Part shown: piece after piece, positions 58,588 to 64,000 of the stretch
Layout: each line of letters opens with the position of its first letter
Numbering within the stretch: the first letter of the stretch is position 1
Assembly (NCBI RefSeq): GCF_000708715.2
Contig: NZ_JENB01000012.1
Location: 1 to 64,000, forward strand
Direction of reading: 5' to 3'
Length of the DNA: 64,000 nt
From: Pseudomonas putida W15Oct28
Lineage (GTDB): Bacteria; Pseudomonadota; Gammaproteobacteria; Pseudomonadales; Pseudomonadaceae
Program-made: the position numbers and the translations under genes
The notes under the pieces: model-generated
Told to the model about the DNA's origin: nothing
Seen by the model: only the letters and a program-made list of their open reading frames with translations
The model's database searches: none

Positions 58588-59460
58588 TCAGCCCTGCCAC
58601 TTGCCCCCTTCGACGATCACGCTTTCCGGCTTGGTGTCATCGCTCAGTTCCTTGCGCACATACTGGTCATACAGCTTCAGCAAGAACTTCTCTTCCCCAA
58701 GCTTGGCCAGCTCGGCGTTCACCCAGTCACGCAGTTCGGTATTGCCCTTCTTCACCGCTGGCGCAATCGGTGCTTCTTCACCCAGCAACTCAGGCAGCAC
58801 GCGGAAGCCCGGGTTCTGCTTGGCCCAGCTGAACAGGATCAGGTTGTCCTGGGCATAGGCATCGCCACGGCCGGTGGCCAGGGCTTGCAGCGATTCGCTG
58901 TTCTTCTCGAACTTGAGCAGTTTCCAGTCTGGGTGATTTTTGGTCAGCCAGATATCGGCCGTGGTGCCGGTGGTGACGATGATGGTCTTGTCGGCCAGGT
59001 CGTCGAGCTTCTGCACCGGGCTGCCGTCCGCCACGATGGCCTGCACGGCAACGCGCAGGTTGGGGTTGGTGAAGTCCACCGCTTCCTTGCGCTCCGGGGT
59101 TACGGTCATGTTGGCGAGGATCAGGTCTACCTTGTCGCTCTGCAGGAACGGAATACGGCTGGCCGGTTCCACGGCAACGAACTCGACCTTGTTTTCATCA
59201 CCCAGCAGGTCCTTGGCCAGGCGCCGGCCAATGTCGGTGTCAAAGCCCACATAGCGGCCCTTCTCATCGACGAAGCCGAACGGCGGCTTGTCGGTGAACA
59301 CCCCGACAATCAGCTTGTCGCGGGCCTTGATGGTTTCCAGGTAGCTGGTGGCTGGCGATGCCGCTGCCGGCTTGGGTGGCTCTTCAGCCTTGTTGCAGCC
59401 GGCCAGCAGGGCCAGGCCGAACAACGGCGCCAGCAGTTTGGTGAGGTTGGCAGTTTTCAT
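58588..59460 (-). CDS. Polar amino-acid ABC transporter substrate-binding lipoprotein
   Basis: This 290-residue lipoprotein has lipobox LLAGC near residue 22 and an SBP_bac_3 fold: DKLIVGVFTDKPPFGFVDEKG, YVGFDTDIGRRLAKDLLGD and VDLILANMTVTPERK with the ligand-binding Arg. It belongs to the glutamate/cystine-type subfamily. The start overlaps the ATPase stop by 4 bases. It is the last gene of a four-gene operon (permease, permease, ATPase, binding protein). The ligand is not identifiable; the neighbouring MetQ-like gene hints at sulfur amino acids. Confidence 0.88.
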   Translation of the reverse strand: MKTANLTKLLAPLFGLALLAGCNKAEEPPKPAAASPATSYLETIKARDKLIVGVFTDKPPFGFVDEKGRYVGFDTDIGRRLAKDLLGDENKVEFVAVEPASRIPFLQSDKVDLILANMTVTPERKEAVDFTNPNLRVAVQAIVADGSPVQKLDDLADKTIIVTTGTTADIWLTKNHPDWKLLKFEKNSESLQALATGRGDAYAQDNLILFSWAKQNPGFRVLPELLGEEAPIAPAVKKGNTELRDWVNAELAKLGEEKFLLKLYDQYVRKELSDDTKPESVIVEGGKWQG

Positions 59461-60230
59461 GACAGTTCCTTGTGCAGTTTCTTAGGCAGGCTTTCTACGA
59501 AGGAGAATTTCTCCAGGAACTGCTGCGCGCGTGCGGTCTGCGGTCGGGTGAAGAAGCTCTCGGGGTCGCCCTGTTCAAGGATCCTGCCGGCCTCCATGAA
59601 CACGATGCGGTCGGCCACCGCGCGAGCGAAGGCCATTTCGTGGGTAACGATGAGCAAAGTCATGCCGTCGCGGGCCAGGCCCTGGATCACCTGCAGCACC
59701 TCCTTGACCATTTCCGGGTCGAGGGCGGCGGTAACCTCGTCGAACAGCATCACCTCGGGGTTCATGCACAGCGAGCGCACGATGGCGATGCGCTGTTGCT
59801 GGCCCCCGGACAATTGCCGGGGGAAGGCGTCGCGCTTGTCCAGCAGGCCGACCCGCGCCAGCAGCGCCTCGGCCTGGGCCTGCGCTTCGGCACGTTCGCG
59901 TTTTTGCACCTTGAGCGGGCCGAGCAGCAGGTTGTCGATCACGCTCATGTGGCCGAACAGGTGATAGCTCTGAAACACCATGCCCACCCGCTGACGAACG
60001 TCGCGCCAGTCGGTGCGCGGGGCCAGCAGCTCTTGCCCGGCCAGGCGCAGGTGGCCGCTGTGGGCCTGCTCCAGGCCGTTGAGACAGCGCAGCAGCGTGC
60101 TCTTGCCGCAACCGCTGGGGCCGAGGATGACCACCACTTCGCCGGCCGTCACCTTGAGGTCGACGTCCTTGAGCACCTGGTGCTCGCCAAAAAACTTGTT
60201 GAAACCCTGGAATTCGATCAATGCGCTCAT
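59457..60230 (-). CDS. Polar amino-acid ABC transporter ATP-binding protein
   Basis: This 257-residue ATPase has Walker A GPSGCGKST, Q-loop VFQSYHLFGHMSV, signature LSGGQQQRIAIVRSL, Walker B VMLFDEVTAALD and switch VTHEMAFARA. It matches GlnQ/ArtP-type polar amino-acid ATPases. It overlaps both neighbours by 4 bases (ATGA junctions), so the operon is tightly coupled. Confidence 0.92.
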   Translation of the reverse strand: MSALIEFQGFNKFFGEHQVLKDVDLKVTAGEVVVILGPSGCGKSTLLRCLNGLEQAHSGHLRLAGQELLAPRTDWRDVRQRVGMVFQSYHLFGHMSVIDNLLLGPLKVQKRERAEAQAQAEALLARVGLLDKRDAFPRQLSGGQQQRIAIVRSLCMNPEVMLFDEVTAALDPEMVKEVLQVIQGLARDGMTLLIVTHEMAFARAVADRIVFMEAGRILEQGDPESFFTRPQTARAQQFLEKFSFVESLPKKLHKELS

Positions 60231-60886
60231 GAGTGTGCCCAGCGGCGTTCCAGCACGCGCGAAGCGGCGGACAGCGGATAACAGACGATGAAGAAGAACA
60301 GGAACAAGGCGCCGTAGATCAGCACCGATTCATAGGTGCGTTCGATGATTTGCTGGCCGGCCTTGATCACCTCGACCACGCCGATCAGCACTGACAGCGA
60401 GCTGGTCTTGATGATCCGCGTGTAGATATTGATGGTCGGTGGGGTCATGCGCTTGAGTGCCTGTGGCAGCAGCACGTAGCCATACAGCTGCCAGCCGGCC
60501 AGGCCGATCGACAACCCGGCCTCGCGCTGGCCCCGCGGCAGCGAAGCCAGTGCACCGCGGACCACCTCGCCCACCTCGCTGGCGCCCCACAGGGCCAGTA
60601 CCAGCACCGCGCACCAGAAGCTGGGGATGCTCAGCGCAAAGAAGATCGGCAGGCCAAAGAACACCAGGTACAGCCAGACCAGCACCGGGATGGCGCGGAA
60701 CAGCTCCAGGTACACCTGCAAGGCGATGTTCAAGGCACGGTTGCCCAGGGTTGCCAGCACGCCGTACAGCACGCCACCCAGCGTCGCGAACAGGATGCCC
60801 AGCGCCGAGATGGCCAAGGTCTGCGCGGCGCCGCCGGCCAGCTGCGGCAACGCCTGCAGCAACAGGTCAAATCCCGAACTGGCCAT
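60227..60886 (-). CDS. Polar amino-acid ABC transporter permease, second subunit
   Basis: This 219-residue HisM/QM-type permease has about five helices and the EAA loop REAGLSIGLAGWQLYGYVLLPQA, with the preceding GASEVGEVVRGALASLP segment. MASSGFDLL at 60886 is the most likely start because AAGGAGACTGCAAC precedes it. It overlaps the first permease by 20 bases and the ATPase by 4 bases. It should form a heterodimer with that permease. Confidence 0.88.
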   Translation of the reverse strand: MASSGFDLLLQALPQLAGGAAQTLAISALGILFATLGGVLYGVLATLGNRALNIALQVYLELFRAIPVLVWLYLVFFGLPIFFALSIPSFWCAVLVLALWGASEVGEVVRGALASLPRGQREAGLSIGLAGWQLYGYVLLPQALKRMTPPTINIYTRIIKTSSLSVLIGVVEVIKAGQQIIERTYESVLIYGALFLFFFIVCYPLSAASRVLERRWAHS

Positions 60887-61532
60887 GTTGCAGTCTCCTT
60901 TCCACATAGCGCAGCAGCAACGACAGCGGCAGGAACAGCAGCACGCAGAGCAGGGTCAGCACGGTGAGCATTTCGTAGGTTTTGTAGTACAGCGCGATGT
61001 AGTTCTTGGTGGTGTAGAGGATTTCCGGCACGGCCACCGCCGACACCACGGTGGTTTCCTTGAGCAGGAAGATGAAATTGGCGAACAGTGCCGGCAGGCT
61101 GAGGATACCGGCCTGGGGCAGCACCACATGGCGCAGCAGTTGCCCCTCGGACAGGCCGATGGAACGCCCGGACTCAAGCTGGGCACGCGGCACGGCCTCG
61201 ATGCCGGCCCGCAACACTTCGGTGAGGTAGGCACCGCCCATAAAGGTCATGGTGATGATCGCGGCGGAAAAACCGGAAATCTTCAGGCCCAGGCTGGGCA
61301 AGGCGAAGTAGACGAAGAACAGCTGGATAAGCAGCGGCGTGTTGCGGGCCAGCTCCACGTACGCTTTGACCAGGCGCCACAGGTAGGGCGTGCGTAGTAC
61401 CAGCAGGGTGGCATTGACCAAGGCGACCAGCAGCGAGGTGGCGATGGCGATCAGGCCTACCTGCAAGGTCACGCCCACGGCCTTGAGAAAGGCGGGTAGC
61501 GTGCTGAGGATGAATGCGATGTCGAGGGTCAT
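60867..61532 (-). CDS. Polar amino-acid ABC transporter permease, first subunit
   Basis: This 221-residue permease is a homologue of the next gene with RAQLESGRSIGLSEGQLLRHVVLPQA as its EAA loop and the ARNTPLLIQLFFVYFALP signature. The ATG at 61532 (MTLDIAFILSTLP) is preferred to a start 12 codons upstream because the membrane helices begin there. It is the first gene of the operon, preceded by a very AT-rich stretch. Confidence 0.88.
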   Translation of the reverse strand: MTLDIAFILSTLPAFLKAVGVTLQVGLIAIATSLLVALVNATLLVLRTPYLWRLVKAYVELARNTPLLIQLFFVYFALPSLGLKISGFSAAIITMTFMGGAYLTEVLRAGIEAVPRAQLESGRSIGLSEGQLLRHVVLPQAGILSLPALFANFIFLLKETTVVSAVAVPEILYTTKNYIALYYKTYEMLTVLTLLCVLLFLPLSLLLRYVERRLQHGQFGI

Positions 61533-61625: not shown

Positions 61626-61649
61626 ATCACCGGTTGGCGAGTAGGACCC

Positions 61650-61734
61650 TGTGGGAGCGGGCGTGCCCGCGAAGCAGGCGCCGCGGTGGATGGCACCGGC
61701 TCTGCCGGTGTTCGCGGGCACGCCCGCTCCCACA
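61650..61734. repeat. 85-base composite REP element, second copy
   Basis: The reverse complement of this unit matches the element at 10782-10866 in length, arms, inner ACCGGC..GCCGGT hairpin and CCATCC stretch, with about ten differences. Confidence 0.8.
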
Positions 61735-61753
61735 GGTACCTGCGGCCAGATAC

Positions 61754-61803: not shown

Positions 61804-62589
61804 TCAGAACGCCGGCAGCACAGCACCTTGGTACTTCTTGGCGATGAATTCTTTCACTTCCGGGCTGGTCAGGGCCTTGGCCAGTTTCTGGATGGCTTCG
61901 CTGTTCTTGTTGTCCGGGCGGGCAACCAGGAAGTTCACATATGGCGAGTCGGCGCCTTCGATCACCAGTGCATCCTTGGCCGGGTTCAGGCCGGCTTCCA
62001 GGGCGTAGTTGGTGTTGATCATGTCCAGGTCGACCTGGTCCAGTACACGCGCCAGCATGGCCGACTCAAGCTCCTTGAACTTCAGGTTCTTCGGGTTCTC
62101 GGCGATGTCCTTCGGGGTGGCCAGGGCATTCTTCGGGTCTTTCAGCTTAATCAGGCCAGCATTCTGCAGCAGGATCAGGGCGCGGCCGCTGTTGCTGCCT
62201 TCGTTAGGGATGGCAACCGTGGCGCCGTCCTTCAGCTCCGACAGGTTCTTGATCTTCTTGGAGTAGCCACCGAAGGGTTCGACGTGTACGCCAATGACCG
62301 TTTCCAGGTGGGTGCCTTTACCTTCGTTGAAGCTCTTCAGGTAGGGCAGGGTCTGGAAGTAGTTGGCGTCCAGACGCTTCTGGTCCACCTGCACGTTCGG
62401 CTGCACGTAGTCGGTGAAGACCTTGATCTGCAGGTCCACGCCCTCTTTGGCCAAGGTCGGCTTGATCAGCTCAAGGATTTCGGCGTGCGGTACCGGGGTA
62501 GCGGCAACCACCAGTTTTTCGGCGGCGGCGGCCAGGCCAGAGAACGACAGGGCGGCGGCCAGGGCGGTGGTCAGCAGGGTCTTCTTCAT
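61804..62589 (-). CDS. metQ: MetQ/NlpA family substrate-binding protein without lipobox
   Basis: This 261-residue periplasmic binding protein of the NlpA (MetQ, methionine-type) family has KLVVAATPVPHAEILELIKP, PNVQVDQKRLDANYFQT, IGVHVEPFGGYSKKIKNLSELKDG and IPNEGSNSGRALILLQNAGLIKL. The signal peptide ends LAAAAEKL with no lipobox Cys, so it is probably soluble rather than a lipoprotein. No metN or metI gene is nearby, which makes it an orphan that must share a distant transporter. It lies downstream of the AAA+ gene and is ended by its own terminator. Confidence 0.86.
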   Translation of the reverse strand: MKKTLLTTALAAALSFSGLAAAAEKLVVAATPVPHAEILELIKPTLAKEGVDLQIKVFTDYVQPNVQVDQKRLDANYFQTLPYLKSFNEGKGTHLETVIGVHVEPFGGYSKKIKNLSELKDGATVAIPNEGSNSGRALILLQNAGLIKLKDPKNALATPKDIAENPKNLKFKELESAMLARVLDQVDLDMINTNYALEAGLNPAKDALVIEGADSPYVNFLVARPDNKNSEAIQKLAKALTSPEVKEFIAKKYQGAVLPAF

Positions 62590-62764: not shown

Positions 62765-63595
62765 CTAGCGTGCGGTGTTGAGCAAGTCGAGGTCTTCTGG
62801 CTGGATCTCTTCGCCGTCATTCACCAGCAAGGCAAAGTGGATGACGTTCTCCAGTTCGCGGGTATTGCCAGGCCAGAAATGCGCTTCCAGCACCTGCTGC
62901 GCCGCCTCGCTTACCAACGGCACAGGCCGCTGCAGGCGCACGCTGTAGATGCCCACGAAGTACTCCGCCAGCGGCAGGATATCGCCCGGGCGCTCGCGCA
63001 GCGGCGGCAGTTCCAGCGCGCCCTCGCGCAAGTACTGGTACAGGCGCTCGTTGAAGCGCCCCGCACGTACCACCCGCGCCAGGTCGATGCTGGTGGCGGC
63101 GACCAGGCGCACATCCACCGGCTGTGGCTGCTGTGCGCCCACCCGGGTGACCTCGCGGTTTTCCAGGGCCGCCAGCAGCTTGCCCTGGATGGCCAGCGGC
63201 AAGTCGGCAATTTCGTCCAGGTACAGCGTGCCGCCGTTGGCCGAACCGAACCAGCCGGCGCGGCTACTGGCCGTACCGCCATGGCTGCCGGCGCTATAGC
63301 CGAACAGCTCGGCATCGGCGTAAGTGGGGCTGATGGCCGCGCAGTTGACCGACACGAACAGCCCTCCACGGTCGCTGGCACGGTGGATCTGCCTAGCCAG
63401 CAGCTCCTTGCCGGTGCCGGTTTCGCCACGGATCAGCACCGGCAAAGGTTGCGGCGCCAGGCGCTCGAGGTCTTCGCGCAACTGCTGCGAACGCGGGTCG
63501 ATGAACACCAGGGCCTTGGCACGGATGCTCAGCGGGCTCTTGTCCAGCTCGGGGAAGGTCAGCAGTGGCTGGCCAAACGGGTTTTGAAACGTCAT
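62765..63595 (-). CDS. Degenerate sigma-54 activator AAA+ protein lacking DNA-binding domain
   Basis: This 276-residue protein is only the AAA+ domain of a sigma-54 activator. Walker A G57-ETGTGKE, Walker B GGTLYLDEI (D127/E128) and sensor II WPGNTRELEN are intact. The sigma-54-contacting GAFTGA loop is replaced by G103-SHGGT. The arginine fingers (PspF R162 and R168) are replaced by N182 and Y188 in FNERLYQYL. There is no receiver domain and no C-terminal Fis helix-turn-helix. It may hydrolyse ATP but is unlikely to activate sigma-54 directly. It lies between the RBBP9-like hydrolase and the metQ-like gene on one strand. Confidence 0.82.
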   Translation of the reverse strand: MTFQNPFGQPLLTFPELDKSPLSIRAKALVFIDPRSQQLREDLERLAPQPLPVLIRGETGTGKELLARQIHRASDRGGLFVSVNCAAISPTYADAELFGYSAGSHGGTASSRAGWFGSANGGTLYLDEIADLPLAIQGKLLAALENREVTRVGAQQPQPVDVRLVAATSIDLARVVRAGRFNERLYQYLREGALELPPLRERPGDILPLAEYFVGIYSVRLQRPVPLVSEAAQQVLEAHFWPGNTRELENVIHFALLVNDGEEIQPEDLDLLNTAR

Positions 63596-63659: not shown

Positions 63660-64000
63660 TCAGGCGCGACGCAGTGCGCGCTGCTCGACCCGGCTCTGCA
63701 AGCGATACAAGTAGGCGAAGCCTTGTTCCCAGCGCTCATGGCCGGACTTGACGTTGATGTGCCCGGCATTGCTCAGCAACCCCGCTTCGGCACCCCAGGC
63801 CTGGGCCAGGTACAGCGCCCGCGGCACGCTCACGGCCGGGTCGTTGTCCGAGCTGACGACCTGGCTGGGGAACGGCAAGGCTTCGGTCGGAATCGGCGCA
63901 AAGTTGCGCAGGGCCGGCGCGCAGGTCGGCCGTTCGACGTCTGCCGGCGCCACCAGCAGTGCACCACGCACCCGCCGCCGCAATGCGGGGCTGGCCTGTG
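63660..64000 (-). CDS. RBBP9/YdeN-family serine hydrolase, 5' end cut by window
   Basis: The final 113 or so residues of an alpha/beta hydrolase are visible: RGALLVAPADVERP, LPFPSQVVSSDNDPAVSV and AGLLSNAGHINVKSGHERWEQG. The acid Asp in SSDNDPAV and the His in NAGHIN belong to the RBBP9/YdeN catalytic triad. The nucleophile lies beyond base 64000. It is cotranscribed with the AAA+ gene 64 bases downstream. The substrate is unknown. Confidence 0.82.
   Translation of the reverse strand, partial: QASPALRRRVRGALLVAPADVERPTCAPALRNFAPIPTEALPFPSQVVSSDNDPAVSVPRALYLAQAWGAEAGLLSNAGHINVKSGHERWEQGFAYLYRLQSRVEQRALRRA

Follow-up and report, generated by a model that had tools for sequence, protein, structure and literature searches.

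The window, which is the whole stretch of 64,000 nucleotides from Pseudomonas putida W15Oct28 that was analysed, ends in a series of genes on the reverse strand (Table 1). One of them encodes a stand-alone AAA+ domain of the sigma-54 activator type, here called the AAA protein. Directly upstream lies the gene of a serine hydrolase, which is cut by the window edge and was missing from the preliminary description of this DNA; in full (G000:C12:63660-64241) it encodes 193 amino acids and ends 64 nt before the AAA start. Downstream, genes of a sulfur type had been proposed, and the family search bears this out with a MetQ/NlpA-type lipoprotein and a polar-amino-acid/cystine-type ABC set. Neighbouring genes were located by tblastn, and those of the window's own genome were named by family search: the order there, all on one strand, is oscA (DUF2292), sbp, cysT, cysW, cysA, a tonB-exbB-exbD type set, hydrolase, AAA, metQ and ABC transporter. 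A search for a -24/-12 promoter signal over this 19.5-kb locus gave 30 matches with at most two mismatches against 33.6 expected, that is, no signal. An inverted GC-rich repeat pair, by eye of the REP kind, lies at 61646-61739 of the window, between metQ and the next transporter gene.

Table 1. Features in and around the AAA gene; positions and strand refer to the window, and orthologue counts to the 93-sequence alignment.
Feature	Position	Strand	Basis or remark
Polar-amino-acid/cystine-type ABC transporter: two permeases, ATPase, binding protein	58588..61529	-	Family search
MetQ/NlpA-type binding lipoprotein, downstream of AAA gene	61804..62589	-	Family search
AAA gene, 276 aa, stand-alone sigma-54-type AAA+ domain and lid	62765..63595	-	ORF and Pfam; no sensor domain, no HTH
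Sensor II WPGNTRELEN, residues 241-250, with R246	62846..62875	-	R246 in 93/93
Arginine-finger segment FNERLYQYL, residues 181-189	63029..63055	-	Fingers N182, Y188; inter-finger Asp replaced by R184
Sensor I position, Ser169 replacing Asn/His	63089..63091	-	Ser in 93/93
Walker B GGTLYLDEI, residues 121-129	63209..63235	-	D127 and E128 in 93/93
L1 loop GSHGGT replacing GAFTGA, residues 103-108	63272..63289	-	Exact GAFTGA in 0/93
Walker A GETGTGKE, residues 57-64	63404..63427	-	G57, E58, G60, G62, K63, E64 identical in 93/93
PF06821 serine hydrolase gene, 3' part, directly upstream of AAA gene	63660..64000	-	Pfam and orthologue loci

The AAA protein matches the Pfam families Sigma54_activat (3.8e-54) and AAA_lid_14 together with further AAA families, and its end is the end of the lid. 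A DNA-binding helix-turn-helix (HTH) is usual in sigma-54 activators, FleT, CtcC and FlgR being rare exceptions. The Pfam scan found no HTH or other DNA-binding family in the window protein and no HTH family in six further members of its clade; since the HTH controls in two proteins of the SfnR class, the sigma-54 activators of sulfur starvation in Pseudomonas, themselves fell below the Pfam cut-offs, this is a weak test, and the absence rests on protein length as much as on the profile. Read in this way, domains and length confirm the early statement that there is neither a sensor domain nor an HTH. All 25 NCBIfam models shown for the window protein match below their cut-offs. Most orthologues outside the putida group (L135-L193) have some 20-48 residues beyond the lid, where the HTH region would be; these tails gave no Pfam match in the four such orthologues scanned, and the window protein, a member of the putida group, does not have them. 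An AF2 model, built from an alignment of 20 rows (the window protein and related loci), has a mean pLDDT of 88.5 and finds its best Foldseek match in 1ny5_B (TMq 0.84), followed by FlrC, FleQ and PspF entries. With sigma-54 activator ATPase domains as its closest solved structures, the predicted fold is ordinary for the domain.

What sets the protein apart are its motifs. Both Walker motifs (Walker B with LYLDEI at 124-129) and sensor II are intact, as the preliminary description had it, and it was equally right that the GAFTGA loop has become GSHGGT and that Asn and Tyr occupy the two arginine-finger positions. Two changes can be added to its list, R184 in place of the inter-finger Asp and Ser169 at sensor I, where the SfnR-class rows of the alignment carry N in nine of ten cases and H in one. 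In ordinary activators the finger segment reads FREDLYYRL, against FNERLYQYL here. The two closest paralogues in the same genome, with 53% identity to the window protein, retain GAFTGA and both fingers, their finger segments being FREDLYYRL (L003) and FREDLFYRL (L002). The window protein therefore has the Sigma54_activat AAA+ fold with Walker A, Walker B and sensor II, and lacks the loop, both fingers and the HTH of sigma-54 activators; as judged from these motifs it is not expected to be an ordinary sigma-54 activator, in agreement with the first assessment.

The same changes run through the orthologues. We aligned 93 Pseudomonadaceae sequences of 56-100% identity from 94 extracted loci; L208, whose translation reads through a stop, was left out. 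The loop and the first finger are lost in all 93 and the second finger in 92: position 182 is never Arg, and position 188 is Tyr in 91 sequences, the exceptions being one Leu and one Arg (L207). Position 184 is Arg in 89/93, and position 105 is Phe in only two. S169, G117, S118, Y125 and T245 are each found in every sequence. Residues 104-106, the former loop tip, rank at the 87th-99th percentile of variability in the alignment, while residues 112-129 are nearly frozen, with a mean entropy of 0.12 against 0.80 for the core. A loop tip that changes fast next to an ATP site that is kept implies that the contact with sigma-54 was released from selection and the ATP site retained. Ten pairs, each with the window gene as one member, gave dN/dS values of 0.03-0.16. 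On this evidence the AAA gene is under purifying selection, and the motif losses are old, fixed and family-wide. Recent decay, which normal motifs in close relatives would have indicated, is ruled out by the motif conservation together with the dN/dS values; no such relatives appeared among the 93 orthologues.

Across the genus the gene is widespread. In a sample of 398 genomes, a match at 1e-60 or better was found in 387, and 369 of these, as we read the table, score 1e-100 or better, the score class that we call AAA-bearing (a class of scores, not of individually inspected sequences); G096, in which the AAA gene is cut by a contig end, comes on top of these and brings the number to about 370. 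The gene is absent from 28/398 genomes. In one genome, G380, remnant pieces of the AAA gene lie behind an open hydrolase gene (L233, 2137-2363), which is evidently an AAA loss in progress.

In a midpoint-rooted tree of 68 rows, the degenerate proteins cluster with two proteins from genus g6 in a single clade (100/100), which lies on the SfnR-class side, set apart from 22 other activators of the window's own genome (99/97); the g6 proteins lie inside it with weak support. The clade's nearest neighbours (96/79) are a pair of SfnR-like g9 proteins that read GAFSGA. Walker A reads GEWGTGRE in the two g6 members (L209:8533-9387, forward strand; L210:8025-8870, reverse strand), and this change of Lys to Arg suggests an altered or dead ATP site. 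Outside the family, no clade members were found in 194 genomes of the order (at 1e-85) or 369 of the class (at 1e-80), thresholds too strict for members that have diverged as far as the g6 proteins (about 1e-77 to 1e-81); the sole class-level match outside the family, in G850, is SfnR-like and has GAFTGA and both fingers. Most simply, the AAA+ domain would have left sigma-54 transcription once, in an ancestor of the Pseudomonadaceae.

The constant companion of the AAA gene is the hydrolase gene. Its product belongs to the PF06821 family of serine hydrolases (7.2e-72), with weaker matches to 3bdv (DUF1234; 5.5e-30) and YdeN (1uxo; 0.00038); we know of no member of this family that works with an AAA+ partner. 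The hydrolase gene lies upstream of the AAA gene on the same strand in 94/94 loci, with gaps of 10-266 nt and one of 606 nt, and the catalytic Ser70 and His161 of the hydrolase are conserved in all of them; these loci were picked either for diversity or because they resemble the window protein, and only one (G518) comes from g9. A hydrolase-AAA fusion is rejected, as in every locus the hydrolase frame is closed by a stop ahead of the AAA start used. In other genera, all 61 AAA-bearing genomes, 22 of which overlap with the 94 loci, also have the hydrolase; by coordinates the two are adjacent in 45 and unlinked in 16, and all 16 belong to g9. That the AAA gene always adjoins the hydrolase gene is thus not the case: they are unlinked in 16 of 17 genomes of g9, which are aeruginosa-like, and in the two g6 loci read (L209, L210) the hydrolase is not near the AAA gene and lies elsewhere in the genome. 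All ten g6 genomes have the hydrolase, and a short AAA frame is listed for three.

Within the genus sample the hydrolase was found at 1e-60 in 380/398 genomes, and four of the 18 without such a match are AAA-bearing. In all four the hydrolase gene is in fact beside the AAA gene: in G201 and G223 a contig end truncates it, and in G302 and G381 (L274 and L275, respectively) it reads frameshifted next to an open AAA gene. Those frameshifts may be either sequence error or real loss. The hydrolase is retained in 14 of the 28 AAA-less genomes of the genus and missing from the other 14. One genome of the family, G409, has an AAA match at 5.6e-79, left unclassified, and no hydrolase. A gyrB tree covered 70 of 76 genomes (four had no gyrB match, three of these AAA-less, and two others were unplaced); counting losses only on it gave 15 losses of the AAA gene and nine of the hydrolase gene, all nine in AAA-less lineages. 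The hydrolase absences do not cluster on this tree beyond shuffles (nine changes; shuffled mean 10.3, least 8). Such asymmetric losses fit an AAA protein that needs the hydrolase. The argument is weakened on two counts: deleting neighbouring genes together can explain the joint loss, and co-occurrence is partly expected because the hydrolase is nearly universal.

The sulfur neighbourhood is less constant. Downstream of the AAA gene, metQ was found in 48 of the 94 orthologue loci, most of which include flanks of some 1.5 kb. Of 19 large loci, 14 have sulfate-transport genes (oscA and/or sbp-cys) close to the pair, namely 13 of 18 non-g6 loci and L055, and two more large loci have metQ without them. 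Where the AAA gene is missing, sbp lies beside the hydrolase in ten of 13 genus genomes whose hydrolase locus was read, and oscA-sbp in four of six hydrolase-bearing genomes of other genera. In g9 the AAA gene follows metQ and a PLP enzyme of Cys/Met metabolism, and the hydrolase has a ChaC-family gene and a tonB set in its neighbourhood. Examples are the PLP enzyme gene (PF01053) between metQ and the AAA gene at L256:3367-4620 (forward strand), and the ChaC-family gene (PF04752) that adjoins the hydrolase, with the tonB set near, at L268:4130-4858 (reverse strand). In the window's own genome, by contrast with g9, the tonB-exbB-exbD type set (L194:9093-11046, reverse strand) sits between cysA and the hydrolase, on the strand shared with the sulfate transporter genes.

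Published data on model strains touch these genes in passing. We take PA3932 to be the probable PAO1 counterpart of the AAA gene, from the gene order beside cioA and PA3931, and PA0201, on the same kind of ground, to be the PAO1 hydrolase; in KT2440 the counterpart is presumably PP_5166, by gene order and annotation rather than by sequence. PP_0229 had been considered for this role and led nowhere, and PP_5165/PP_5166 fit instead. In published work, cioA/PA3931 are named together (PMC6588701), and deletion of PA2504 lowers PA3932 and PA3931 along with oscA, sbp and cysAWT (PMC8466066), a paper in which PA0201 does not occur. PA0201 is found in lists alongside sbp and PA3931 (PMC5150637 and PMC6546240), and one of these sources, a P. 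aeruginosa microarray study, groups PA3932 apart from PA3931, PA0201 and the cys genes (PMC6546240). In a PAO1 sulfur-starvation study (PMC12581299) none of PA3932, PA3931 and PA0201 is named in the main text, and PA3932 does not occur in the main text of PMC8041468. For KT2440, PP5166 appears among tabulated transposon insertion sites under the label 'Fis family transcriptional regulator' (PMC4211546), and PP_5165, next to PP_5166, is given as an NlpA lipoprotein (PMC6066579). In the passages covered, PP_0228-0230, PP_5165-5167, PA0278/0279/0284, PA3931/PA3932 and PA0201 appear as table or list entries.

We propose, tentatively and with confidence a little short of even, that the AAA protein is a sigma-54-independent ATP-binding module that works with the hydrolase in sulfur limitation. 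An AAA+ domain of the enhancer-binding-protein type would have left sigma-54 transcription and become an ATP-binding module of the sulfur-limitation response. The protein would bind ATP, and binding rather than brisk hydrolysis would be what counts; its ATP-dependent shape or assembly may then control, stabilise or activate the hydrolase, or a complex holding it, when sulfur is short. In this scheme we infer the contact between the two proteins, the direction of control and sulfur limitation as the condition. The hydrolase is preferred as the partner because it is the gene found wherever the AAA gene is clearly found; counted against it is g9, where the AAA gene is not linked to the hydrolase gene and sits with metQ and the PLP enzyme. 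R184 could be a displaced finger, and ATP hydrolysis could thus be possible. A more specific form of the proposal, which we consider doubtful, is that a sigma-54 activator ATPase was turned into a dedicated ATP-gated regulator of the serine hydrolase, R184 being either a substitute finger or the mark of a switch that binds without turnover. AAA+ activases of the MoxR/RavA/CbbQ type, which are encoded beside a fixed partner that they remodel, offer a possible model of action, although they belong to a different AAA+ branch, have partners of other kinds and are homologous only as AAA+ proteins.

The preliminary description had offered two readings, a dominant antagonist or heterohexamer modulator of another activator and a repurposed ATPase tied to the sulfur genes. 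Of these, the repurposed ATPase fits better, with the correction that its constant companion is the upstream hydrolase gene. As a modulator, the protein would insert into the rings of ordinary sigma-54 activators, SfnR or others, receive their arginine fingers at its own preserved ATP site and tune or poison the ring. In fold and in closest relatives it belongs with the sigma-54 activators, such activators are always at hand in the host, and intact Walker motifs combined with absent fingers would suit a mixed ring. The nearest candidates are the SfnR-class proteins, which are closest by sequence (53%, two copies in the own genome) and in the tree and also lack a sensor domain; they differ from the AAA clade in having GAFTGA, both fingers, the inter-finger Asp and about 100 post-lid residues with weak HTH matches, so that the window protein groups with them in the tree and lacks their activator motifs and post-lid HTH region. 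SfnR-class matches accompany the AAA gene in many genus genomes (at least two at 1e-60 in most) and are common in the wider sample, but of 46 AAA-bearing genomes, selected as divergent by their weaker orthologue scores, 33 have none at 1e-70, and SfnR as an obligate or general partner was discarded. FleT of Rhodobacter sphaeroides, for which we know of no hydrolase partner, provides the precedent; the window protein shares its make-up of an AAA+ domain alone, with neither sensor nor HTH, the two being compared here by domain make-up. FleT is a sigma-54-type activator domain without signal and DNA-binding domains (PMC3162934) that acts with FleQ at flagellar promoters (PMC9542535, PMC7277832). 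An isolated AAA domain that acts with a full activator in this way keeps such a modulator in play; yet the AAA gene tracks the hydrolase and not a given activator, and Walker A has lost its Lys in both g6 sequences read, and we consider this explanation unlikely.

It is similarly improbable, in our view, that the protein is an ATPase or chaperone of the sulfur regulon for another client, such as the transporter, a monooxygenase or the PLP enzyme, with the hydrolase as a mere neighbour in the regulon. The metQ gene next to about half of the orthologues and the g9 arrangement behind metQ and the PLP enzyme speak for it; metQ was not found beside the other half, however, while every clearly AAA-bearing genome tested has the hydrolase gene. 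A further possibility is a regulator that acts on sigma-70 transcription independently of sigma-54, in the manner of TyrR, DhaR, HupR and VpsR. These proteins keep their DNA-binding domains and act bound to DNA, unlike the AAA clade, whose member here, having no HTH, would need a DNA-binding partner. In TyrR, DhaR, HupR and VpsR the GAFTGA motif is changed or deleted and they are sigma-54 independent or thought to be so (PMC3162934); this parallel and the 'Fis family' label of PP5166 favour such a regulator, and the lack of an HTH family in the window protein and six clade members tells against it, weak as that test is, so that we give it little credence. That the gene is a decaying SfnR copy without function is scarcely tenable: several activator motifs are lost, some genus genomes have no copy and G380 holds a remnant, but the low dN/dS of all ten pairs, the invariant ATP-site residues and the retention across the family contradict it.

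The loss of GAFTGA and the lack of sensor and HTH domains are each already known singly. Their combination with finger loss, fixation across a family and a constant hydrolase companion did not turn up in the passages searched of the open-licence literature, supplements aside. The name of sigma-54 or 'Fis family' transcriptional regulator is routinely given to proteins with this domain, and here a family-wide group is, by its motifs, no such regulator. If the pairing with the hydrolase is functional, it would reveal a route by which an AAA+ motor that activates transcription came to serve an enzyme partner, and an uncharacterised hydrolase would gain a companion in the sulfur response. The group would then also serve as a natural experiment, showing which functions require the GAFTGA loop and the arginine fingers.
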